A DNA stretch of 64,000 bases, from assembly GCF_021730435.1 (NCBI RefSeq), contig NZ_JABWGX010000002.1:1-64000 (forward strand), in the 5' to 3' direction. Positions 1 through 51,524 of the stretch are shown here, one piece after another. Below the pieces are notes generated by a model. The model searched no databases. It was not told the DNA's origin and saw only the letters and a program-made list of their open reading frames with translations. The stretch is from Xanthobacter agilis. GTDB lineage: Bacteria > Pseudomonadota > Alphaproteobacteria > Rhizobiales > Xanthobacteraceae. Made by a program: the position numbers and the translations under genes. The stretch's first letter is position 1; the number at the start of each line of letters is the position of its first letter.

Positions 1-75
1 GTCAGCCTTGGGGGCGTCAGCCTTGGGGGCGTCAGCCTTGGGGGCGTCAGCCTTGGGGGCGTCAGCCTTGGGGGC
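1..75 (-). repeat. 15-bp coding tandem repeat (ADAPK) in the efflux adaptor
   Basis: Five perfect copies of gtcagccttgggggc fill bases 1-75, with a degenerate sixth at 76-90. Read on the minus strand they encode Ala-Asp-Ala-Pro-Lys in frame. The array continues off the left edge, so copy number is unknown. Confidence 0.97.
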
Positions 76-1206
76 GTCAGCCATCTGCGGGGTCACCGTC
101 ACGCCGGGACGCACCCGCATCAGCCCGTTCACCACCACCACGTCTTGCGGCGTCAACCCTTCGAGGATCGCGCGCTGGTCGCCCACCGTGGCGCCGAGGG
201 TGACGAAGCGCTGCGAGACCGTGTTGTCGGGCCCCACCACATAGACAAACTTCTTCACCTGCTCCGTGCCGATGGCGGCATCGGGCACCACCATCACCTC
301 ATGCGGATCGGACGAATTGAGGCGGATGCGCGCGAACATGCCCGGCCGGAACAGGCCGTTGGGATTGTCGAACACCGCCCGCCCGCGGATGGTGCCGGTC
401 TCGCGGTCGATGACGTTGTTCAGGAAGTCCATCTTCCCGTTGTGAACGAAGCCCTTGTCATCGATGAGCTTCAGGGCCACCGGATCGCCCTTGATATCGG
501 CCTTGCGGCGCTGGATGCGCAGCAGTGAGGCCTCGTCGATGGTGAATTCGAAGCGGATGGGATTGGTGGAGACGATCACCGCCAGCAGGGTCGGCGAACC
601 ACCCGTGCCGCCGGTCACATAATTGCCCACCGACACCCGCCGGTCGCCGATCTGGCCGGAGACCGGCGCCTTCACCTCGGTGAAGTCCAGATCGAGCTGG
701 GCGGACCGCACGGCGGCTTCCTGCGACTGCACGGTGGCGGCGGCGGTGCGCTCGGCCTGGGTGCGCTGGTCGAAGGTCTGCTTGGAGATGGCCGTGGAGT
801 TGCGGTCCTCCAGCAGCGAGCGGGCGCGCTCGAGGTCGGCCTTCGTGAAGTCCAGGTTCGCCTGGGCCTGGGCGAGGTTCGCCTGGGCCTGCTGGAGGGC
901 GATCTTGAACGGGCGCTGATCGATGGTGAACAGCAGGTCGCCCTGCTTCACCAATTGCCCGTCCGTGAAGTGGATGGAGTCCAGATAGCCGGACACGCGG
1001 GCGCGCACGTTCACCTCGTCAATGGCGACGAAGCGGCCCACATATTCGTCCTGATCGGTCACGGTGCGGGTGGAAGGGTGCGCCACCGTCACCGGGGGCG
1101 CCGGCGGCGGCCCCGACTGCTGTGCGGTCGGCTGGCCACAGCCCGCGAGCGACAGCGCGAGAAGGGCAGGCGCGAAAAAGAAAGCTGAGCGCATGGGGTG
1201 CGTCAT
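1..1206 (-). CDS. RND efflux membrane fusion (periplasmic adaptor) lipoprotein, 3' end cut by window edge
   Basis: This is the periplasmic adaptor that couples an inner-membrane RND pump to an outer-membrane channel. 402 codons are visible and no stop is reached before base 1. The start ATG at 1206 has AGGAG nine bases upstream (1216-1220). A lipoprotein signal ends in the lipobox LAGC at Cys23. Then follow the barrel-sandwich lipoyl half (VRARVSGYL, LFTIDQRPF), an Ala/Gln-rich helical hairpin near residues 105-165, the second lipoyl half (VKAPVSGQIGDRRV) and a beta-barrel and membrane-proximal part ending VNGLMRVRPGVTV. The C-terminus runs into Ala-Asp-Ala-Pro-Lys repeats. The RND pump gene is expected just left of the window. 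The family is clear; the substrate is not. Confidence 0.9.
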   Translation of the reverse strand, partial: MTHPMRSAFFFAPALLALSLAGCGQPTAQQSGPPPAPPVTVAHPSTRTVTDQDEYVGRFVAIDEVNVRARVSGYLDSIHFTDGQLVKQGDLLFTIDQRPFKIALQQAQANLAQAQANLDFTKADLERARSLLEDRNSTAISKQTFDQRTQAERTAAATVQSQEAAVRSAQLDLDFTEVKAPVSGQIGDRRVSVGNYVTGGTGGSPTLLAVIVSTNPIRFEFTIDEASLLRIQRRKADIKGDPVALKLIDDKGFVHNGKMDFLNNVIDRETGTIRGRAVFDNPNGLFRPGMFARIRLNSSDPHEVMVVPDAAIGTEQVKKFVYVVGPDNTVSQRFVTLGATVGDQRAILEGLTPQDVVVVNGLMRVRPGVTVTPQMADAPKADAPKADAPKADAPKADAPKAD

Positions 1207-25314: not shown

Positions 25315-25347
25315 ATGACCCTCGACCGCCTCCGGCTGACCGCATGA
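25315..25347 (+). CDS. 10-codon upstream reading frame overlapping the smc start
   Basis: ATG at 25315 opens the peptide MTLDRLRLTA, whose TGA stop overlaps the smc ATG as ATGA. The DNA is a tandem partial copy of the smc 5' end: 17 bases (tcgaccgcctccggctg) are identical in both, offset by 29 bases. Translation is plausible by its placement but unproven. Confidence 0.45.
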   Translation: MTLDRLRLTA

Positions 25348-28300
25348 AGTTCGACCGCCTCCGGCTGGTGGGCTTCAAGACGTTCGTCGAGCCCACCGAA
25401 CTCGTCATCGAGCCCGGCCTGACAGGCGTGGTGGGCCCGAACGGGTGTGGCAAGTCGAACCTCGTGGAAGCGCTGCGCTGGGTGATGGGCGAAAGCTCCC
25501 ACAAGGCCATGCGCGCCCAGGACATGGACGACGTGATCTTTTCCGGCACCACCGGGCGGCCGGCGCGCAACATGGCCGAAGTCGCGCTCCACCTCGACAA
25601 TGCCGACCGGACCGCCCCCGCCGCCTTCAACGAATGGGAAAAGCTGGAAGTCGCGCGCCGCATCGAGCGCGGCTCGGGCTCTGCTTATCGCATCAATGGG
25701 CGCGACGTGCGTGCGCGCGATGTGCACCTGCTGTTCGCGGACGCCTCCACCGGCGCGCGGTCCCCGGCCTTGGTCCGGCAAGGGCAGATCGGCGAGATCG
25801 TGGGCGCCAAGCCCAATGCCCGCCGCCGCATCCTGGAGGAGGCGGCCGGCGTCGCCGGCCTTCATGCCCGCCGCCATGAGGCCGAGACGCGCCTGAAGGC
25901 GGCCGAGCAGAACCTCGCCCGGGTGGAAGACGTCATCACCCAGATGGGATCCCAGGTGGAGAGCCTGCGCCGGCAGTCGCGCCAGACCCAGCGCTACAAG
26001 GTGCTCGCGGCCGAAATCCGCAAGTGCGAGGCCACCCTCATGTGGCTGCGCTGGCGCGAGGTGACGGCAGCCCTGATGGAGGCCGAGCGGGCGCTGTTCG
26101 CCTCCCAGCGCGACGGCGCGGAGCTGACCCGCATGCAGGCGGAATCGGCCCGCCTCCAGGCGCTCGCGGCCCACGCCCTGCCCCCCCTGCGCACGCAGGA
26201 GGCGGAAGCCGCCGCCGCCCTCCAGCGCCTCACCCACGCCCGCGAGGCGCTGGACAAGGAGGAGGCGCGCCTGTCCACCCGCCGCCAGGAGCTGGAACGC
26301 CGGCTGGTGCAGCTCGCCCAGGACCTCGAACGCGAAAAGTCCCTGTCCACCGACGCGGAAGGCGTATTGGCGCGGCTGGAGGCCGAAGCGGAAGCCCTCA
26401 TCGCCGAGCAGGAGGACGCGGCCGACCTTGGCGCCGCCGCCGCCGAGCGGCAGGAGGAAGCCGCCGCTTTGCTGGAGGAAGCCGAGCTGCGCCTTCAGGA
26501 GAAGACCACCCATTTCGCCGATCTCGGCGCCCGCCGCGCCAGCCTGGAGCAGACCGCCCGCGAAATCCGCGACCGGCTGTTGCGCAACGCCGCCGAGCGC
26601 GCCTCGGTGGAGGCCGAGGAGGGTCGGCTCAGGCGCGAGGCCGGCACAGCGGCCCTCGACGACATCCGCCTCAACGCGGAAATCGCCCGCGAAAGCCTCG
26701 CCGAGGCCGAGGAAGCCACCATGGCCGCCGAGGCCGAACACGCCGCCGCCCGGCGCGCGGTGGAAGCGCTGCGGCCGGCGGTGAGCGAGGCGGACAAGCG
26801 TTTCGGCCGCCTGGACGCGGAGGCCCGCACCCTCGCCAAGCTGTTGCAATCCAGTGACCACCGCTTCCCGCCGGTGGCCGACCTGGTCGCCGTGACGAAG
26901 GGCTACGAGACCGCCCTCGGCGCCGCCCTGGGCGACGACCTCGACCTGCCGGTGGCGCCGGAGGCCCCCGCCCGCTGGGCCGGCTCCGCCCTCGACCCCG
27001 CCGACCCGCCGCTGCCGCCGGGGGTGACGCCGCTCGCCACTCATGTCCAGGGCGCGCCGGCGCTGGCCCGCCGGCTGGCCCAGGTGGGCATCGTCGCCGC
27101 CGGCGATGGCGGGCGCCTCGCGCCGCTGCTGAAGCCTGGGCAAAGGCTCGTCTCCCTGACCGGCGACCTCTGGCGCTGGGATGGCGTCGTCGCCGCCGCC
27201 GATGCGCCCACCGCCGCCGCCCGCCGCCTCGCCGAGCGCAATCGCCTGGCCGATATTGAGGCCGATGCCGCCGCCGCGCAGGAGGCCATGGAGGAGCTGC
27301 GCGCCACCCTGGCCGAGCGCGAGGGCGAGCTCCACCTCGCCGCCGCCGCCGAGACCCAGGCCCGCGAGGCCCGTCGCACCGCCCAGCGCGCCGCCGAGAC
27401 CGCCCGCGCCGTGCTGGAGACGGCCGAGCGCAAGGCGGCCCAGCATATGGCCCGCCTCGCCGCCATCGGCGAGGCCCGCACCCGCCTTGCCGCCGTGCGC
27501 GAGGAGGCCGAAGCCCAGGCGGAGGATGCGCAGGCGGAGCTTGCCGCCCTCGACCTGCCCCAGGTGCTGGAAGCCGAGCTCGCCCGTGCCCGCGCCGATG
27601 CCAGCGCGCACCGGGCCGCTCTCGCGGAGGCCCGCGCCGCCGCCGAGGCCCTGCGCCGCGAGGGCGCCGCCCGCATCAAGCGCCTGGAGGCCATCGTCGG
27701 CGAGCGCCGGTCCTGGCAGCAGCGCGCCGGGGGCGCCGGCGAGCGGCTCGCCGCCATCGCCACCCGCGCCGAGGAGGCGCAGGCCGAATTGGCCGAGATC
27801 GAGGACGCGCCGAGCGAGATCGTCCGCCAGCGCCGGGCCCTGATGACCGCCCTCGAGACGGCGGAAGCCGCCCGCCGCGCCGCGGCCGACCGGCTGGCCG
27901 AGGGCGAGGCGGCCCTTGCCGCCGCCGACACCGCCGCCCGCGACGCATTGGAGGCCATGTCCCAGTCCCGCGCCGAGGCCGCCCGCGCCGAGGCCCGGCT
28001 CGAGGCCGCCCGCCAGCGCCGGGAGGACGTGGAACGCGAGATCCTCGAAGCCCTGGACGGCCCCCCGGACACCGCCCGCGCCCAGGCCGCCATTGCCGAC
28101 GACGACAACCTGCCCGAGGCCGCCGCCATCGAGGCCGTGCTCGAACGGGCCAAGCGCGACCGCGACCGCCTCGGCGCCGTGAACCTGCGCGCCGATGTGG
28201 AGCTGGAGGAGGCCGAGGCCAGCCACACGGCCCTCGTCGCCGAGCGCGACGACCTCATCGAGGCCATCAAGCGCCTGCGCGGCGCCATCCAGAGCCTCAA

Positions 28301-32818: not shown

Positions 32819-32836
32819 ATGACGCATCGGACATGA
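32819..32836 (+). CDS. 5-codon upstream reading frame overlapping the tssE start
   Basis: ATG at 32819 reads Met-Thr-His-Arg-Thr and stops at a TGA that overlaps the tssE ATG. The 14-base unit atgacgcatcggac is repeated as atgacccatcgcac at 32833, 12 of 14 identical, so the frame is a tandem copy of the gene's own start. Confidence 0.4.
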   Translation: MTHRT

Positions 32837-33258
32837 CCCATCGCACGCTCCTGGAACGGCTCCGGGCGCCCGACACCGCGCCCCGCGGCGAGACCGCATC
32901 GGACGCCACGGGCGACCTGTCCGGCCTCGTCGACAGCATCATGGGCAACCTGCGGTCGGTGCTGAACGCACGGGCGAACTGCTGCCTGTCGCGTCCCGAC
33001 TTCGGCATGCCGGATTTCAACGATCTGGTGGGCCGGTTTCCGGACGCGCTCGGCATCATCGCGGCGGCGGTGCGCGGCCAGATCGAGATGTTCGAGCCGC
33101 GCCTGTCCGAGGTCTCGGTCAGCCACGTTCCAGACCGCAGCAACCCGCTGCATCTGGCCTTCCGCATCCACGCCACCCTGGTGCTGGAAAACGGCCCCAA
33201 GCGCCTGGCGTTCGACACCGTCCTCAACAACAACGGCTACGTGAATGTGAGCGATTGA
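32833..33258 (+). CDS. tssE: T6SS baseplate wedge protein TssE
   Basis: TssE is the gp25-like baseplate wedge. 141 residues with the family's MTHRTLLERL start, a central NLRSVLNARANCCLSRPDFGMPDFNDL and C-terminal VSHVPDRSNPLHLAFRIHATLVLENGPKRLAFDTVL. I chose ATG 32833 because family members begin near the LLERL motif; a TTG at 32767 would add 22 low-complexity residues. The start codon region is tandemly duplicated upstream. Confidence 0.92.
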   Translation: MTHRTLLERLRAPDTAPRGETASDATGDLSGLVDSIMGNLRSVLNARANCCLSRPDFGMPDFNDLVGRFPDALGIIAAAVRGQIEMFEPRLSEVSVSHVPDRSNPLHLAFRIHATLVLENGPKRLAFDTVLNNNGYVNVSD

Positions 33259-44567: not shown

Positions 44568-45325
44568 CCGCCGCCGGCCGCGCCCAGGGCGGGCTCTACG
44601 GCAAGATCCCCTCGAAGGACGATTTCGTCCGGCGCAACCTGCCGCTCTCCTTCGTCACGCCCTGGGATGGCTGGCTGAACCGGGTGATGGCGGGCAGCGC
44701 CGAACCCGGCTCCGGCGCCTGGAAGGCGGCCTATCTCACCAGCCCGCCCTGGCGTTTCGCCCTCGACCCCGGCGTGGCCGGGCCGGAGGGGTGGATCGGC
44801 GTGCTCGCCTCCTCGCTGGACCGCTTCGGCCGCGCCTTTCCCCTCACCCTCGCGGTGCCCTTCGCCCGCGATTTCGGTATCCTCGACCTCCACGAGGAGA
44901 CGCGCCCCCTCACCAGCGGCCTGGAAGACCTCGTGCTGGAGGTGATCGACGGCACCCTCGACCTGGAACAGGCCGCCGCCGCCCTCGTCAGCCTCGCCGG
45001 CCGGCTCCTGCCGGCACCGCACCCCGATCCGGTGACACGCACCGCGCGGGAGGGCGCTACCCGCGCCGACCGCACCTGGGTGCTCACCGGGCGCCGGCTG
45101 CCCACTGTCGCCGGCGCCGCCAGCGAGTTGCTCACCTGGTCGCTGCGGGCCGGCGCCGCGGGCCCGGTGGGCCTGTCGTGCTGGTGGCACGAGGGCTGGG
45201 ACGAGCATCCCCCGGTCTGGCTCATGACCCGAGGCCTGCCGGCTCCGGACGTGTTCGCGCGGATGATGGACGGGGCGTGGTCCGCGATCGCCCCGCCGGG
45301 GGAGGTGATCCGCCATGAGCGATGA
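44564..45325 (+). CDS. tagF: T6SS-associated regulator TagF
   Basis: In Pseudomonas and Agrobacterium TagF represses T6SS after translation, in part by binding Fha. 253 residues beginning GLYGKIPSKDDFVRRNLPLSFVTPWDGWL, the DUF2094 signature, followed by PPWRFALDPGVAGPEGWIGVLASSLDRFGRAFPLT, and C-terminal GLSCWWHEGWDEHPPVWLMTRGLP. The start overlaps the tssM stop. In Agrobacterium TagF is fused to PppA; here the two genes are separate but overlap by 11 bp. Confidence 0.92.
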   Translation: MTAAGRAQGGLYGKIPSKDDFVRRNLPLSFVTPWDGWLNRVMAGSAEPGSGAWKAAYLTSPPWRFALDPGVAGPEGWIGVLASSLDRFGRAFPLTLAVPFARDFGILDLHEETRPLTSGLEDLVLEVIDGTLDLEQAAAALVSLAGRLLPAPHPDPVTRTAREGATRADRTWVLTGRRLPTVAGAASELLTWSLRAGAAGPVGLSCWWHEGWDEHPPVWLMTRGLPAPDVFARMMDGAWSAIAPPGEVIRHER

Positions 45326-46091
45326 AGCCGCACGCGATGGAGCCGCGCGCGATGGCGCCGTGAGCGATGCCACCATGGGAGAGCTGCGCTTTGCCGCCTC
45401 GGCCGCGACCCGCATCGGCCCCCGCCACCGGCAGAATGAGGATGCCCATGCCGCATGGGATGCGGCCGCCCTGTTCGTGGTGTCGGACGGCATCGGCGGC
45501 CTCGCCGACGGCGCGGTGGCGAGCCGCGCCGTGGTCGAGCTGCTACAGCGGGGCGTCACGCCGGGGGCGGCGCTGGACCGCCGCGTGGCACAAGCCCGCG
45601 ACGCCTTGTTCCGCGCCAACGCCGCCCTGTTCCAGTCCGGCGCCGAGAGCGGGGCGCCGCTGGGCGCCACCGTGGTGCTCGCCGTGTTGGGCGAGGGCTG
45701 CGCCGTCTGCCTCTGGGCGGGCGATTCCCGAGCCTACCTCGCCCGTGCGGGCCGGCTGCATCCGATCACCCGCGACCATGCCATCTTCGGCCGCACCGCG
45801 CCCGGCGCCGCGGCCCGCACCGTCATCACCCGCGCCATCGGCCCCGAGGACGATGTGGAGATCGACTGCGCCATCGTCGATCTCGTGGCGGGCGACGCGC
45901 TGCTGCTGTGCTCGGACGGGGTGCACGGCGCCATTCCGAGCGCGCGGCTGGAACAGCTGCTGACGACCGGCCCCGGCGTGGGCGCGACCCAGGTGGTGGA
46001 AGAGGCCGCCGCCTACGGGACGCGGGATGATGCCACCGCGATCATCGTCCACATCCGCGCCGCGGAGGGAGCCCATGGCGCGCGGGCCTGA
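45315..46091 (+). CDS. pppA: PP2C-type protein phosphatase PppA
   Basis: Reverses threonine phosphorylation of Fha in the T6SS switch. 258 residues with the PPM metal-binding motifs: RHRQNEDAHA, VVSDGIGGLADG, GATVVLAVLGEGCAVCLWAGDSRAYL, TRDHAIFGR, GDALLLCSDGVHG and DDATAIIVHI. The first 20 residues are low complexity, from a 15-bp repeat at 45319-45378 encoding DEAAR, DGAAR and DGAVS; an ATG at 45375 would skip it. Overlaps tagF by 11 bp and the kinase by 17 bp. Confidence 0.94.
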   Translation: MSDEAARDGAARDGAVSDATMGELRFAASAATRIGPRHRQNEDAHAAWDAAALFVVSDGIGGLADGAVASRAVVELLQRGVTPGAALDRRVAQARDALFRANAALFQSGAESGAPLGATVVLAVLGEGCAVCLWAGDSRAYLARAGRLHPITRDHAIFGRTAPGAAARTVITRAIGPEDDVEIDCAIVDLVAGDALLLCSDGVHGAIPSARLEQLLTTGPGVGATQVVEEAAAYGTRDDATAIIVHIRAAEGAHGARA

Positions 46092-47088
46092 GCCCCGGCC
46101 CGCGGGCGCCGCCGCGCCGGGTGAGGCCGGCGGCAACCGCACGCGCATCCTGTCCCCCTATCTCGGCCTCAGGCTCAAGGGCCGCTACGAGCTGATCCAG
46201 GTGATCGGACGCGGCGGCATGAGCACGGTCTTCCATGCCGTGGACCATGTGCGGCTCGGTGCCCGCGCCGGGCGACCGGACGTCGCCATCAAGCTCGTCA
46301 CCCTCGCCCCGCCCCATGACACGGCGGCGCGGGCGCTGATTCACCGCGAGGCCCAGCGCATGCTGGAGCTGATCCACCCCAACATCGTGCGTGTCTACGA
46401 CAGCGACCATGACGGCGACCGCCATTTCCTGGTGATGGAGCTGCTGCGGGGCCGCACGCTCGCCGCCATACTCCGGGACCGGCGCGGCCGGGGCCTCGAC
46501 GGGCCGCAGGCCTGCGGCTGCATCCGCTCCGTGGGCGCAGCGCTGGCGCATGCGCATGCGCACGGTCTCATCCACGGCGACCTGAAGCCCGGCAATGTCT
46601 TCATCTGCAACGACGGCCGGGTGAAGGTGCTGGACTTCGGCCTGGCGCAGCGGACCGTCCAGGCCCCTCACGATGACGAGGATGCCACGATCCGCCTTCT
46701 CGACCAGGTGGGCGCGCTGACGCCGCGCTTCGCCTCGCCCGAACGGCTGGACGGCTGCCCCCCCACACCGGCGTGCGATCTCTTCGCTTTCGGGCTTCTC
46801 GCCTATATGGTGCTGTCCGGAGCCCACCCGTTCCAGCGGCGCACCGCCCTCGAAGCCCGCGCGGAGGGGGTGGGACCACGACGCCCCGAGGGCCTTTCCG
46901 CGCACCGCTGGCGGGCTCTCAAGGCGCTGCTGGCATTCGATCCCGCGCACCGTCCCGCGCGGGTGGAGGAGTTCACCAACCGCTTCCTGGCCCAAAGCGT
47001 CCTTGCGCAGGCCTTTGCGTTGCCGAACCTTCGCGCGCGCTGGCGGGCCGGCGCAGCCTTCCTTGCCGCACGCAGGTCGTCGCCATGA
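46075..47088 (+). CDS. T6SS-associated serine/threonine protein kinase (PpkA role)
   Basis: The kinase is expected to phosphorylate Fha. 337 residues from ATG 46075 (GGAGGGA just upstream). Domain: glycine loop IGRGGMSTVFHA, ATP lysine in DVAIKLV, catalytic loop HGDLKPGNVF where Gly replaces the usual Arg of HRD, DFG in VKVLDFGLAQ, and FASPE. Unlike Pseudomonas PpkA it has no visible membrane helix or periplasmic sensor, so it is probably cytoplasmic. The lost arginine suggests activity without activation-loop phosphorylation. Stop overlaps the first of a chain of short ATG frames. Confidence 0.9.
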   Translation: MARGPEPRPAGAAAPGEAGGNRTRILSPYLGLRLKGRYELIQVIGRGGMSTVFHAVDHVRLGARAGRPDVAIKLVTLAPPHDTAARALIHREAQRMLELIHPNIVRVYDSDHDGDRHFLVMELLRGRTLAAILRDRRGRGLDGPQACGCIRSVGAALAHAHAHGLIHGDLKPGNVFICNDGRVKVLDFGLAQRTVQAPHDDEDATIRLLDQVGALTPRFASPERLDGCPPTPACDLFAFGLLAYMVLSGAHPFQRRTALEARAEGVGPRRPEGLSAHRWRALKALLAFDPAHRPARVEEFTNRFLAQSVLAQAFALPNLRARWRAGAAFLAARRSSP

Positions 47089-47135
47089 ACATCGCGCCAA
47101 GATGAGCATCGTCCAAAGATGAGCACCGCCCCGAG
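47085..47135 (+). repeat. three 17-bp repeats forming a chain of overlapping stops and starts
   Basis: atgaacatcgcgccaag, atgagcatcgtccaaag and atgagcaccgccccgag follow head to tail. The first ATG overlaps the kinase stop (ATGA). Its frame MNIAPR stops on the second ATG, and that frame (MSIVQR) stops on the third, which is the real start MSTAPR of the coiled-coil gene. All three junctions are ATGA. Confidence 0.9.
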
Positions 47136-47562
47136 ATCCGAATTGCAGACGCTCCAGAAGCTCGACCAGCTCTGCCGCCAGATCGCGCGGGGCAATTACG
47201 ACTATACGGACGAGCTGTTCGCCCTCACCTGCGCGGAGGATGCCTCCCCCTCCATTCGCGAGCTTGCGGAATCCTTCGGCTTCATGCTGGTGCAGGTGGA
47301 AGCGCGCGAGACCCGGCTGACCTGGCTGGTGGAGGAATTGCAGGAGCTCAAGGCCCAGCTGGAGGAGGCCAACGGCCGGCTGCGGAAGGAGAATGCGACC
47401 CTCTCCGACACCGTCGCGCAGCTCACCGTGGCCATCGACCGCCAGCGCTTCAAACGGGAGGTGGGCGCCATCACGGAATCCGATTATTTCCAGAATCTCC
47501 AGCGCCGGGCCCGGTCGCTGCGGGAGCGGCACAAGGCCGGCGAGCCGGAGGACCGGAAGTGA
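47119..47562 (+). CDS. coiled-coil protein of the T6SS locus, unknown function
   Basis: A 147-residue soluble protein. A helical N-terminal part (LQTLQKLDQLCRQIARGNYDYTDELFAL) leads to a long coiled coil at about residues 60-110 (VEARETRLTWLVEELQELKAQLEEANGRLRKENATL) and a charged C-terminal helix with ITESDYFQNLQRRARSLRERHK. It ends inside the MinD-like gene (GTGA overlap), so the two are likely partners, by analogy with ParA/MinD ATPases whose partners are often coiled coils. I do not recognise a named family. Confidence 0.8.
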   Translation: MSTAPRSELQTLQKLDQLCRQIARGNYDYTDELFALTCAEDASPSIRELAESFGFMLVQVEARETRLTWLVEELQELKAQLEEANGRLRKENATLSDTVAQLTVAIDRQRFKREVGAITESDYFQNLQRRARSLRERHKAGEPEDRK

Positions 47563-48323
47563 CCCACATCGTCTCCACCCACTCCTATCGCGGCGGCACC
47601 GGCAAATCCACGATCACCGCCAATATCGCCTATCTGCTCGCGCTCCAGGGGCTGCGCGTGGGGGTGGTGGACACCGACATCCTCTCGCCCGGCATTCATG
47701 TGCTGTTCGGCCTCGATGCCGATAGCGCCCGCTTCACCCTCAACGATTATCTGTGGGGCCGCTGCGCCATTGAGGAAGCGGCGATCGACGTCACCGACAG
47801 CGCCTTTCCCGATGGCGCTCCTGATGGCGGCAGCATCCACCTTCTGCCGTCCAGCATGCAGGCCGGCGAAATCGCGCGGGTGCTGAAGGAGGGGTTCGAG
47901 GTGGACCTGCTCAACGAGGGCTTCCACGCCCTGTGCGAGCGCCTCGCCCTCGATTATCTCCTCATCGACACCCATCCGGGGGTGAACGAGGAAACCCTGC
48001 TTTCCATCGCCATCTCCGACACCCTGCTGCTGGTGCTGCGGCCGGATCACCAGGATTACCAGGGCACGGCGGTGACCTTGGAGCTGGCCCGCCGCCTGGA
48101 CGTGCCGCAATTGCTGCTGGTGGTGAACAAGGCGCTGAAGGCGTTCGACACCCGGCAGCTGGCGGACCAGATCTGCACCGCCTTCCGCAGCCCGGTGGCG
48201 GCGGTGCTGCCCCTGAACGAGGATCTGGTGCGCCTGGGCAGTTCCGGCATCCTCTCGGCCCTCGCGCCCGAGAGCGACTATGTGGTTGCCCTGCGCCCGG
48301 TGGTGGACCTGGTCCGGAACTGA
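47559..48323 (+). CDS. MinD/ParA-like ATPase of the T6SS locus
   Basis: A 254-residue P-loop ATPase of the MinD/ParA class that positions cellular machines. Deviant Walker A is HSYRGGTGKSTITANIA, with Arg where the signature lysine (KGG) is usual. Walker A' is VGVVDTDILSPGIHVLFG, Walker B LLIDTHPGVNEETL, and a late LLLVVNKALKAFD holds the adenine-contact asparagine. No C-terminal amphipathic membrane helix like MinD's is obvious. It is the last gene of the plus-strand T6SS operon. A role in placing or timing T6SS assembly is inference from context. Confidence 0.88.
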   Translation: MTHIVSTHSYRGGTGKSTITANIAYLLALQGLRVGVVDTDILSPGIHVLFGLDADSARFTLNDYLWGRCAIEEAAIDVTDSAFPDGAPDGGSIHLLPSSMQAGEIARVLKEGFEVDLLNEGFHALCERLALDYLLIDTHPGVNEETLLSIAISDTLLLVLRPDHQDYQGTAVTLELARRLDVPQLLLVVNKALKAFDTRQLADQICTAFRSPVAAVLPLNEDLVRLGSSGILSALAPESDYVVALRPVVDLVRN

Positions 48324-48347: not shown

Positions 48348-49535
48348 TCAGCGGCCCTGGAACGCGCCGAGGAAGGCCACCGCATCCGCCGGGCGCTGCC
48401 CCTGGTCGAACGAGAGCGCCGCGGCGAGCGCCGCCTGCATGGGCGCCGTGAGGCCGGCGATCACCGGCGGCACGAGCCCGCGCGCCATGGCGTCGGTGGC
48501 GGGAACGCGCCCGAAGGGGTGCCTGCGCGTCAGCAGCAGATGGATGATGCAGCCGAAGGCATAGACATCGTCCCGTGGGTCACGCGGCTCGCCGCGCAAT
48601 TGCTGGGGGCTGGCATAGGTGGGCGTCACGGCGTCGAAGGTCGGGGCGTCGCGGTCCCCCCCGGTCCGGGCGGCGCTGGCGATGCCGAAATCGAGGATCT
48701 TCAGGCGCCCGTCCGCGCACAGGAACAGGTTGCCGAGCTTCAGGTCCGCATGGATGACGCCCTGGGCATGGGCGTGACCGAGCCCGGCGAACATGTCCCG
48801 AATGGCGTGCCAGGCCGCTGGACTGCCGGCAAAGGCAGCGTCGTCCTTCAGCCGCACATCCAGCGAGCTGCCTTCCAGCAGTTCCATGACGATGAAGGGA
48901 TTGGCGCCATCGCGGTCGAAATCGTGCACGGCCACGATGTTGGGGTGGGACAGGTCCTGGGTGCGCCGGGCCTCCGCCTCCATGCTGCGCAACGCGTCGG
49001 GATGGGCGCCGAAATCCCCGTGCAGCAGCTTGACGGCCACATAGGGACGGCTGCCGGCCGCTTCCACCCGGCGGCGATCCACGGCGCGGTAGACCACGCC
49101 CATGCCGCCGCGCCCCAGCTCCGCGTCGAGGACGAAACGGTCACGCAGGATCTGGCCGATCCGGTTCTCCTCGCGCCCGCTGCGGCCGAGCACCAGGGGG
49201 CGGCCATTGCCGTCAGCGCTGCTGCGGGCATCGCGGCGCAGCCGCGCGCCGCGGAACGAGGCCAAGGCATCGTCCAGCTGGCGCTGGTTCTGCCGCGCCC
49301 GCGCCTCCCCGCCCTTGCGCAGATCCTTGAACTGGCCAAGCAGCGCGGAGAGCACCACCGCATCCACCCGGCCACGCAGGGTTTCCCCCTCGCCCGCCGG
49401 CGACTCGGCCCCCGCCGATGCCCCAGTTGACGCCCCACTTGACGCCCCAGTTGACGCCCCTTGCGCCGCCGCAGGTGGGGCCGGTTCCGGCCGGGTGGCT
49501 TCCTGGAACAGCAGCATGGCGAGATCATAAGGCAT
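48348..49535 (-). CDS. second serine/threonine protein kinase of the T6SS locus
   Basis: 395 residues from the only canonical start, ATG 49535. After a low-complexity segment with GAST/GASS units the kinase domain runs ELGRGGMGVVYRAVD, YVAVKLLHG, HADLKLGNLFL (Ala in place of the HRD arginine), LKILDFGIAS and PTYASPQQL, and closes with QRPADAVAFLGAFQ. It lies 60-250 bp after the sigma-54 activator, on the same strand. Coding-like sequence continues in frame upstream of this ATG to about 49727, so the true start is uncertain. It faces the MinD-like gene, 24 bp apart at the stops. Confidence 0.85.
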   Translation of the reverse strand: MPYDLAMLLFQEATRPEPAPPAAAQGASTGASSGASTGASAGAESPAGEGETLRGRVDAVVLSALLGQFKDLRKGGEARARQNQRQLDDALASFRGARLRRDARSSADGNGRPLVLGRSGREENRIGQILRDRFVLDAELGRGGMGVVYRAVDRRRVEAAGSRPYVAVKLLHGDFGAHPDALRSMEAEARRTQDLSHPNIVAVHDFDRDGANPFIVMELLEGSSLDVRLKDDAAFAGSPAAWHAIRDMFAGLGHAHAQGVIHADLKLGNLFLCADGRLKILDFGIASAARTGGDRDAPTFDAVTPTYASPQQLRGEPRDPRDDVYAFGCIIHLLLTRRHPFGRVPATDAMARGLVPPVIAGLTAPMQAALAAALSFDQGQRPADAVAFLGAFQGR

Positions 49536-49727
49536 GCGGCCGAGATTGATCTGTTCTTGGAGCGCCGCCGAAAGCTGGGCGGCGCTCCGCCCCGCGGCGC
49601 CCCCGCCGTCCGCCCCATCGTCCGCCCCATCCTCCTGGCCGAACGCGCGCAGGGCCGCGGCGAGCTGATCGAACGAGCGCCGCCCCGTGAAGAATTCCGA
49701 GAACAGATCGTTCAGATGGCGGTCGAT
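49536..49727 (-). other. probable N-terminal extension of the second kinase with ATC initiation
   Basis: In frame with the kinase ATG and without a stop, 64 codons read IDRHLNDLFSEFFTGRRSFD, then QLAAALRAFG, then AAQLSAALQEQINLGR before MPYDLAMLLF. This looks like folded protein. No ATG, GTG or TTG occurs in it, but AAGGGAG (49735-49741) stands exactly seven bases before an ATC codon (49725-49727). A non-canonical ATC start, or a base change from ATG, would explain it. Confidence 0.5.
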
Positions 49728-49787: not shown

Positions 49788-51524
49788 TCATACTCGGCCG
49801 GGCTGGCGGATATCGTAGCGCGACAGCTTTTCCACCAGGCTGCGCCGGGAGATCCTCAAGAGATCGGCCGCACGGCTCTGGTTCCAGCCGGTCTCGCGCA
49901 GTTTCACCTCGATGATAGCAGCTTCGTAATTCTGCACCATCAGGCGCAATCCGCCCCCTTCTTCCTCCGGGGTCATGATCGGTGCCGGCAGGGCGGTGCT
50001 GGCCATCAGCTCCGGCGGGAGATGGGGCAGGTCGAGCCGGTCGCCATCGCAGAGCAGCACCGCGCGTTCCACGATATTCTTCAGCTCGCGGACATTGCCG
50101 GGAAAACGCCAGTTGACGAGGCAGGCAAGCGCCTCCGGCGTCAAAGCCGGTGGCCGGCGCCCCAGCGGCGCGCAGGCCGCCGCCAGGAAATGCTCGATCA
50201 AGGCGGGAATGTCCGACGTCCGGTCCCGAAGCGGCGGCAGGGTGATGGGGAAGACCTGCAGCCGGTAATAGAGATCCTCGCGGAACTGGCCCTGCGCGAT
50301 CTTGGCGGCAAGGTCCGCATTGGTGGCGGCGACGATGCGCACATCCACGGTCTCGGTGCGGGTATCGCCGACCCGCCGCACCTCGCCCTGCCCCAGCATG
50401 CGCAGGATCTTCGATTGCAGGCCAAGGGGCATGTCCCCCACCTCGTCCAGGAATAGGGTGCCGCCCTGGGCGGCGTGCACCAGGCCGGCGCGGTCCGCGA
50501 TCGCCCCGGTGAAGGCGCCACGGCGATAGCCGAACAGCTCGCTTTCCAGGAGGTGCTCCGGCAGCGCCGCGCAGTTTTGCACCACGAACGGCCGCGCGCT
50601 GCGGGGGCTCGCCGCATGCAGCATCTTGGCGAACACCTCCTTGCCGGTGCCGGTCTCGCCCAAAAGCAGCACCGGCACCGTCGCCGGAGCCGCCCGCTGG
50701 AGCAAAGCGAGGGCCACCTGGAATGGCGCGCTGTCGCCGATGACGCCGTTGCCGGGCCCCGCCTGGGCGTTGCGCAGGCGGGTGTTTTCCTCCTCGAGGT
50801 CGCTGCGCGCGCGGTCGAGCTGGCGGATCAGCCGACGGTTCTCGTCGAACAGGCGCGCATTGGCGATAGCCACCGCCGCATGGGCCGCGAAGCAGCGCAC
50901 GACCCGTTCGAAATCCGGGCTGAGCGCGCGTCCGGCGGCGCCGGCCTCCAGAGGCCAACCATCCATGCGCCGATGATCCATGCGCACGTTGATGAGCTGG
51001 AGCACCCCAAGGGTGAACCCCTCCACCGAGCGCAACGGCACCGCCACGAAGGCGCGGGTGCGGAACGCCGTCGCCGCTTCATGGGCATAAAGCGCGGTGA
51101 AATCGAGCCCGGTATACGCGCGGACATCGGCCACGTTCACCACCCGCCCGGTCACCGCCGCATAGACATTGGGCTCGTCGAGATTAAAAGAATTGGCGGC
51201 CCGGTAGAGCGGCACGCTCCGCGCAAGGCCCGACAATTCCGGCGCCGCCTCGTTCTGCCCCACCAGGCAATGCAGCTCCCGGCCGGTGCGGTCGAGCACG
51301 AGAATGCGCCCGCCCTCGGCCGCGGTCAGGCGCCGCGCCGCGCTCACCACCGCGTTGAGGAGGGTTTCGAGATGACGCTCGGTGGCGAGCGCCGTCGTCA
51401 CCTCCATCAACTCCTCAAGCGCCGCCAAGGAATCATGTGAGGCCCCGGGATCATGTGAGGTCTCGGGATCATGCGCCGCCCGGAGGTCGTCCGCGGTCGA
51501 GGGATCGTGCGATGCCGCATCCAC
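49788..51524 (-). CDS. sigma-54-dependent transcriptional activator with GAF domain
   Basis: An enhancer-binding protein that opens sigma-54 promoters. 578 residues from GTG 51524. A GAF domain (about 35-215) is followed by the AAA+ domain: Walker A LLGETGTGKEVFAKML, the sigma-54-contacting loop GAFTGA intact in YRRGAFTGAIADRAG, Walker B TLFLDEVGDMPL, and FREDLYYRLQVFPI. The C-terminal helix-turn-helix is NQSRAADLLRISRRSLVEKL. The N-terminus holds a degenerate 18-bp repeat (51431-51484). VasH-type activators drive T6SS hcp genes in Vibrio; this one is coded 13 bp after clpV and 3.6 kb from a -24/-12 promoter. Confidence 0.95.
   Translation of the reverse strand: MDAASHDPSTADDLRAAHDPETSHDPGASHDSLAALEELMEVTTALATERHLETLLNAVVSAARRLTAAEGGRILVLDRTGRELHCLVGQNEAAPELSGLARSVPLYRAANSFNLDEPNVYAAVTGRVVNVADVRAYTGLDFTALYAHEAATAFRTRAFVAVPLRSVEGFTLGVLQLINVRMDHRRMDGWPLEAGAAGRALSPDFERVVRCFAAHAAVAIANARLFDENRRLIRQLDRARSDLEEENTRLRNAQAGPGNGVIGDSAPFQVALALLQRAAPATVPVLLLGETGTGKEVFAKMLHAASPRSARPFVVQNCAALPEHLLESELFGYRRGAFTGAIADRAGLVHAAQGGTLFLDEVGDMPLGLQSKILRMLGQGEVRRVGDTRTETVDVRIVAATNADLAAKIAQGQFREDLYYRLQVFPITLPPLRDRTSDIPALIEHFLAAACAPLGRRPPALTPEALACLVNWRFPGNVRELKNIVERAVLLCDGDRLDLPHLPPELMASTALPAPIMTPEEEGGGLRLMVQNYEAAIIEVKLRETGWNQSRAADLLRISRRSLVEKLSRYDIRQPGRV

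Follow-up and report, generated by a model that had tools for sequence, protein, structure and literature searches.

Mycobacterial MIRUs, found for example at senX3/regX3, are the closest known natural case of the arrangement described here. In the excerpted text of PMC12548453, they are tandem-repeat short open reading frames (ORFs) at start codons, coupled at -4 nt and thought to limit harm to expression. Lengths of 77 and 53 bp are given in the corresponding extract of PMC4213456, and both are of the form 3n-1 by our own arithmetic. The published reinitiation work compared here, as far as it is represented in the extracts of PMC6728339 and PMC10666635, studied ribosome restart at a single overlap. 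In E. coli gene pairs, coupling needs no more of the upstream gene than its last 15 nt, a stop-to-start spacing of +14 nt cuts reinitiation by 40-80% and one of +38 nt nearly abolishes it (extract of PMC10666635); earlier reports to the contrary, in which scanning extends further, are mentioned there too. In Haloferax, a Shine-Dalgarno motif helps reinitiation and is not essential (extract of PMC6728339). Synthetic constructs with a non-functional short frame (nfORF) right before a gene use this frame to deliver ribosomes to it (extract of PMC13255528). A literature search of titles and abstracts found no start-codon tandem duplications of the kind reported below, which is a weak negative, subscription journals lying mostly outside its coverage.

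Three overlapping starts at a kinase/coiled-coil junction

The window analysed is a stretch of 64,000 nucleotides from Xanthobacter agilis (contig NZ_JABWGX010000002.1 of assembly GCF_021730435.1, positions 1 to 64,000). It contains a short array of start codons within a type VI secretion cluster that encodes TssM, TagF, a PP2C-type phosphatase, a kinase, a coiled-coil protein and a MinD/ParA-like ATPase. The junction is composed of the following features:

46027..47088, plus strand: Ser/Thr protein kinase gene upstream of the array (Pfam Pkinase, 6.3e-37; ORF list), stop TGA at 47086-47088
47074..47076, plus strand: AGG, the sole Shine-Dalgarno-like motif near the array (sequence), 8 nt ahead of ATG1 and also present in the Xanthobacter relative
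47085..47105, plus strand: unit 1 mini-frame MNIAPR-stop (sequence, Tandem Repeats Finder), ATG1 at 47085 over the kinase stop, TGA 47103-47105 over ATG2
47102..47122, plus strand: unit 2 mini-frame MSIVQR-stop (sequence, Tandem Repeats Finder), ATG2 at 47102, TGA 47120-47122 over ATG3
47119..47562, plus strand: coiled-coil gene of 147 aa, beginning at ATG3 in unit 3 (ORF list, relatives)
47559..48323, plus strand: MinD/ParA-like ATPase gene (Pfam ParA, 1.3e-16), GTG at 47559 in a 4-nt GTGA overlap with the coiled-coil stop

According to the sequence and the ORF list, the units at 47085, 47102 and 47119 are 17 bp each and all open with ATGA. Tandem Repeats Finder reports a period of 17 at 47085-47137 with 3.1 copies, 77% matches and a score of 64, and the three units are identical to each other at 13/17 positions in pairwise comparison. 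ATGA pairs at 17-bp spacing occur three times in the window (0.79 expected; three were reached in 0/100 shuffles), two of the three being the array itself. A preliminary description of this DNA had named the three 17-bp ATG units, the overlap with the kinase stop and the two hexapeptide frames whose stops fall on the next ATG, all of which is confirmed by sequence, ORF list and Tandem Repeats Finder. The overlap of stop and start on the same strand that is used as a criterion for termination-reinitiation is thus found three times in series.

Ribosome-binding signals were expressed as Shine-Dalgarno duplex energies, calculated throughout with an anti-Shine-Dalgarno tail that we assumed; a 16S tail was sought within the 64-kb window and not found there. 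The energy is -3.8 at ATG1 and only -1.9 at ATG3, compared to a median of -5.8 over 126 genes, and ATG2 has no match. No Shine-Dalgarno motif is located inside the units of this array.

Like the MIRU frames, the X. agilis mini-frames are short ORFs coupled to the next start at -4 nt. MIRUs, in contrast, are a single interspersed and apparently mobile family, whereas the present units are 14-29 bp long and differ from locus to locus. A repeat family of shared sequence was not found, as both X. agilis chains with 17/17 spacing and the arrays from the family (see below) differ in sequence. Because each array resembles the first codons of its own gene, the present arrays are not regarded as MIRUs. 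The -4 nt overlap at every step is of the standard type known from ATGA coupling (extracts of PMC6728339 and PMC10666635). Known pairs, however, join two genes, while here one or more six-codon frames intervene in series. Bicistronic design, a synthetic arrangement with a short upstream ORF, is comparable to the nfORF. The frames in these synthetic systems hold a strong ribosome site beside the stop, which is lacking in the window units and present in most units of the C27 chain described below.

For the coiled-coil protein, neither profile library gave a family match above the cut-off, and a bZIP match was sub-threshold only. Tandem repeats of 12, 15, 18 and 24 bp, all of length 3n, lie close to where three further genes of the type VI secretion cluster begin, namely those for the PP2C phosphatase, a second kinase and a sigma-54 regulator (45319-45369, 49408-49474, 49598-49635 and 51432-51473). 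At the edge of the window (1-82), a perfect 15-bp tandem array of 5.5 copies is found.

The junction in relatives

The coiled-coil gene is present in 2/14 genomes of the genus and 14/296 genomes of the family, with the X. agilis genome counted in both. Its closest relative with the gene is a Xanthobacter (87% identity), in which the compared stretch is identical to the record Xanthobacter sp. NM-59. There, a matching kinase end with the AGG is followed by a single ATGA overlap at the ATG1 position that serves as the coiled-coil start; in-frame repeats are located in the first residues of the coiled-coil protein, and the kinase and coiled-coil genes are out of phase.

Among the 13 relatives, the printed frames, read by eye, give a -4 overlap (ATGA or GTGA) in five (L002, L004, L006, L016 and L017) and a coiled-coil start 1 to 4 nt past the upstream stop in another five (L009, L010, L011, L012 and L014). 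The remaining three (L005, L019, which is cut off, and L020) are outside this count of 10 readable junctions. Extra out-of-frame units at the coiled-coil start are absent from all 10. The upstream gene resembles a phosphatase and not a kinase in at least three relatives (L004, L006 and L017), and in-frame repeats of 24 bp lie at this coiled-coil start in the Azorhizobium record L006 (identical to L018). The single or close starts in relatives, together with the in-frame repeats, show that tight coupling at this start is common, that the out-of-frame units are particular to the X. agilis genome and that repeats readily expand at the N-terminus of the coiled-coil protein. Given the one ATGA overlap that the Xanthobacter relative has where ATG1 lies, the extra units appear to be duplications of the start within the X. 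agilis lineage.

No selection on the mini-frames is detectable at this locus, as the probability that six substitutions spare each of the 12 ATGA sites by chance is 0.18. The preliminary description had suggested comparing junctions for unit number and preserved length. At the kinase/coiled-coil junction, extra units are found in 0/10 readable relatives, all of them from other species. Its refuting outcome, random unit lengths without preserved ATGA junctions, is answered at another gene, the mfd junction of a related genus, where the length of 17 bp and the ATGA are kept.

Recurrence of start-codon chains

In the whole X. agilis genome, the ATGA triple at 17/17 spacing has three matches at two places, namely the kinase/coiled-coil array and C27:3243-3297, and the reversed control pattern has none. 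The latter place is part of a chain of six ATGAs spaced 16, 16, 17, 17 and 17 bp (C27:3211-3297; L022 1469-1555), which lies between the stop of a membrane-fusion-like gene (named by eye) and the start of an FtsX/MacB-like permease gene (Pfam). The duplex energy is -5.7 or better at 5/6 ATGs of this chain and -2.5 at the permease start. Two further start duplications of length 3n-1 are found in the window:

25315-25373: 29-bp duplication at the start of an SMC gene (25344), upstream copy MTLDRLRLTA-stop, ending on the SMC start
32819-32846: 14-bp duplication at the start of a GPW_gp25-family gene (32833), upstream copy MTHRT-stop

Elsewhere in X. agilis, a matched string on the minus strand of C6 (11250-11281) consists of units that resemble each other and carry three ATGAs spaced 14/14. 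At C1:91129-91180 and C1:60344-60374, 12-bp in-frame repeats multiply ATG codons at gene starts.

A search for ATGA triples at 16 or 17 spacing in 296 family genomes gave at least 150 matches. The arrays examined were the 27 distinct ones with at least 60% unit identity among the matches listed, together with five found earlier. Chains recur at gene starts across these genomes, including starts of mfd, ruvA, purS and M16 peptidase genes. By eye, 16/24 of these 17-bp arrays clearly have the first codon of a coding frame at their end, two do so weakly (L177 and L191) and six do not. The 16-bp arrays of the same set are located at gene starts in 0/8 cases, a contrast confounded by their origin mostly from other genera. 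Genes supported by Pfam after the chains are RuvA, PurS, M16 peptidase, TctA, an ABC permease and a RimK-type ATP-grasp protein, the last of which is preceded by the longest chain among the arrays examined (L192, G190:C15:83764-83852), with six ATGAs at 17-bp spacing. The gene caller used across the surveys is crude, orthologous chains are not independent and several genes were named by eye.

For the related genus g23 (30 genomes), complete lists were evaluated, with tandem loci defined by at least 55% identity. The totals are 43 loci of 3n-1 (11, 14, 17 and 20 bp) versus five of 3n+1 (10, 13, 16 and 19 bp), or 33 versus five without the 10/11 class, in which several 11-bp rows resemble one recurring sequence. 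Because some of the loci are orthologous and hence not independent, binomial values for g23 overstate the evidence. The position relative to gene starts was read for the 25 arrays with a locus, in addition to which there are 24 rows without one. Clear gene-start positions are found for 17/22 arrays of 3n-1, with one weak case, and for none of the three arrays of 3n+1, one of which is ambiguous. Spacing 20 is represented by one tandem locus away from gene starts and spacing 19 by none.

The g23 junction between two genes that we take to be sdhE (upstream) and mfd was collected by protein similarity from 30/30 genomes, so that it is free of pattern bias, and is readable in 29. A 200-aa piece of the downstream protein gave the UvrB-interaction domain as its only Pfam match. 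Single overlapping starts are found in 20 junctions (19 ATGA, one GTGA) and other spacings in two. Extra units occur in the remaining 7/29 (one unit in five, two in one and three in one), and 10/10 of them are 17 bp long with an intact ATGA. In an mfd tree based on about 450 nt from 30 sequences, the carriers form two separated groups, G095 with G275 and a second of G183, G198, G260, G257 and G113. Divergence at third codon positions ranges from 6 to 26% in the second group, within which three single-start species are nested with poor support.

Viral contigs lend no support to a general rule in viruses, as they have no excess of 17 over 16 and contain mostly plain minisatellites. Four ATGAs at 17-bp spacing were found in 75 stretches with 86 arrays, 63 of them tandem; six had a last ORF of at least 60 aa outside a long ORF. 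At 16-bp spacing, 80 of at least 120 stretches gave 100 arrays, 78 of them tandem, with five cases by the same ORF rule.

Length bias and a probable passage of ribosomes

Tandem duplications that carry a start codon were counted in 2016 genes with crude gene calls, taken from 1.192 Mb of the X. agilis genome and 0.4 Mb from each of three genus relatives. At the precise position of the called start, eight are of 3n-1 (G000 four, G006 two, G011 two, G009 none), none of 3n+1 and none of 3n. A looser scan that includes nearby starts gave 27, namely eight of 3n-1, five of 3n+1 (none at a called start) and 14 of 3n. Shuffled upstream DNA yielded 0.55 of 3n-1 and 0.65 of 3n+1 per run. Non-coding tandem duplications number 30 of 3n-1, 28 of 3n+1 and 57 of 3n, the 3n count probably being swollen by missed coding sequence. 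Since the two out-of-frame classes are nearly equal there, the mutation process is taken to be unbiased between them, and the 8:0 ratio at starts differs from 30:28 with a one-sided Fisher p of 0.0085.

The explanation that we consider probable is that start duplications arise by slippage and persist at 3n-1, where the end of the extra frame coincides with the following start, so that ribosomes can be passed on by termination-reinitiation. Like its counterpart in the Xanthobacter relative, the coiled-coil gene would first have had its start over the kinase stop, at ATG1. Tandem duplication of 17 bases at this start would have moved it to the last copy, ATG3, leaving the older starts ATG1 and ATG2 as six-codon frames. 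Because 17 is of the form 3n-1 and the start reads ATGA, the stop of every old frame falls exactly on the start that follows. Ribosomes leaving the kinase would encounter, step by step, a stop and a start within 4 nt and be handed on to ATG3, the mini-frames restoring the -4 overlap each time with 18 nt ahead of each mini-frame stop. Direct reinitiation at ATG3, in turn, should be poor, given its distance of 30 nt from the kinase stop and its nearly absent Shine-Dalgarno match. Copies of 3n-1 would persist in the family, while the frame opened by a 3n+1 copy would continue into the gene in the wrong phase. Direct observations are the anatomy of the array, the recurrence of chains, the length bias and, at the mfd junction, a unit number that varies with intact junctions; that the mini-frames are translated, that ribosomes are handed over and that selection brought about the length bias is what we infer from them. 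Against such a relay speak the undetectable selection on the mini-frames, the relative that does without extra units and their absence from all 10 readable junctions, the units without Shine-Dalgarno motif, the 16-bp units that also occur in the C27 chain, the six 17-bp arrays away from gene starts and the viral contigs.

The undetectable selection in the units, the single start of the relative and the units without Shine-Dalgarno motif favour a pure relic, in which ATG1 and ATG2 are dead, ATG3 is initiated alone or by short-range scanning, the mini-frames are unused and the length of 3n-1 is accidental. We regard this as rather unlikely, given that the match at ATG3 is weak relative to the 126-gene median and ATG1 has a better one, that the length bias is found at starts and absent from non-coding duplications, and that 17-bp ATGA units at the mfd junction stayed intact through the third-position divergence given above.

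Returning to the relay by termination-reinitiation, 3n-1 micro-duplications of starts might constitute an evolvable class in Xanthobacteraceae-type genomes, made anew from each gene's own start and not spread as a repeat family, with copy number as a selected, fast-changing coupling dial at many operon junctions; in this general form the idea is doubtful. The preliminary description had proposed that the relay could fix the level of coiled-coil/MinD in relation to the kinase. Its geometry and its 3n-1 argument hold, also at other loci, but unit number as a selected regulator of this level is improbable. The mfd junction, where species have from zero to three extra units of constant length and intact ATGA, and the chains of up to six ATGs would suit it; against it, the kinase/coiled-coil chain is found in one genome and extra units are absent from the Xanthobacter relative. 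A fused kinase/coiled-coil protein made by readthrough of the kinase TGA is most improbable, because the shared phase of the two frames (47119-47086 = 33, with ten open codons at 47089-47118) is given automatically by two 17-bp copies and is missing in the Xanthobacter relative.

Start annotation is likely to be uncertain at such chained sites. The suggested rule is that duplication of a start codon is tolerated at 3n-1 (or 3n) and removed at 3n+1, which the reported MIRU lengths fit. At most putative tuners of gene expression, the chains are a natural test of ribosome restart, and those with one to five mini-frames provide a ready series for measuring the efficiency of successive restarts.
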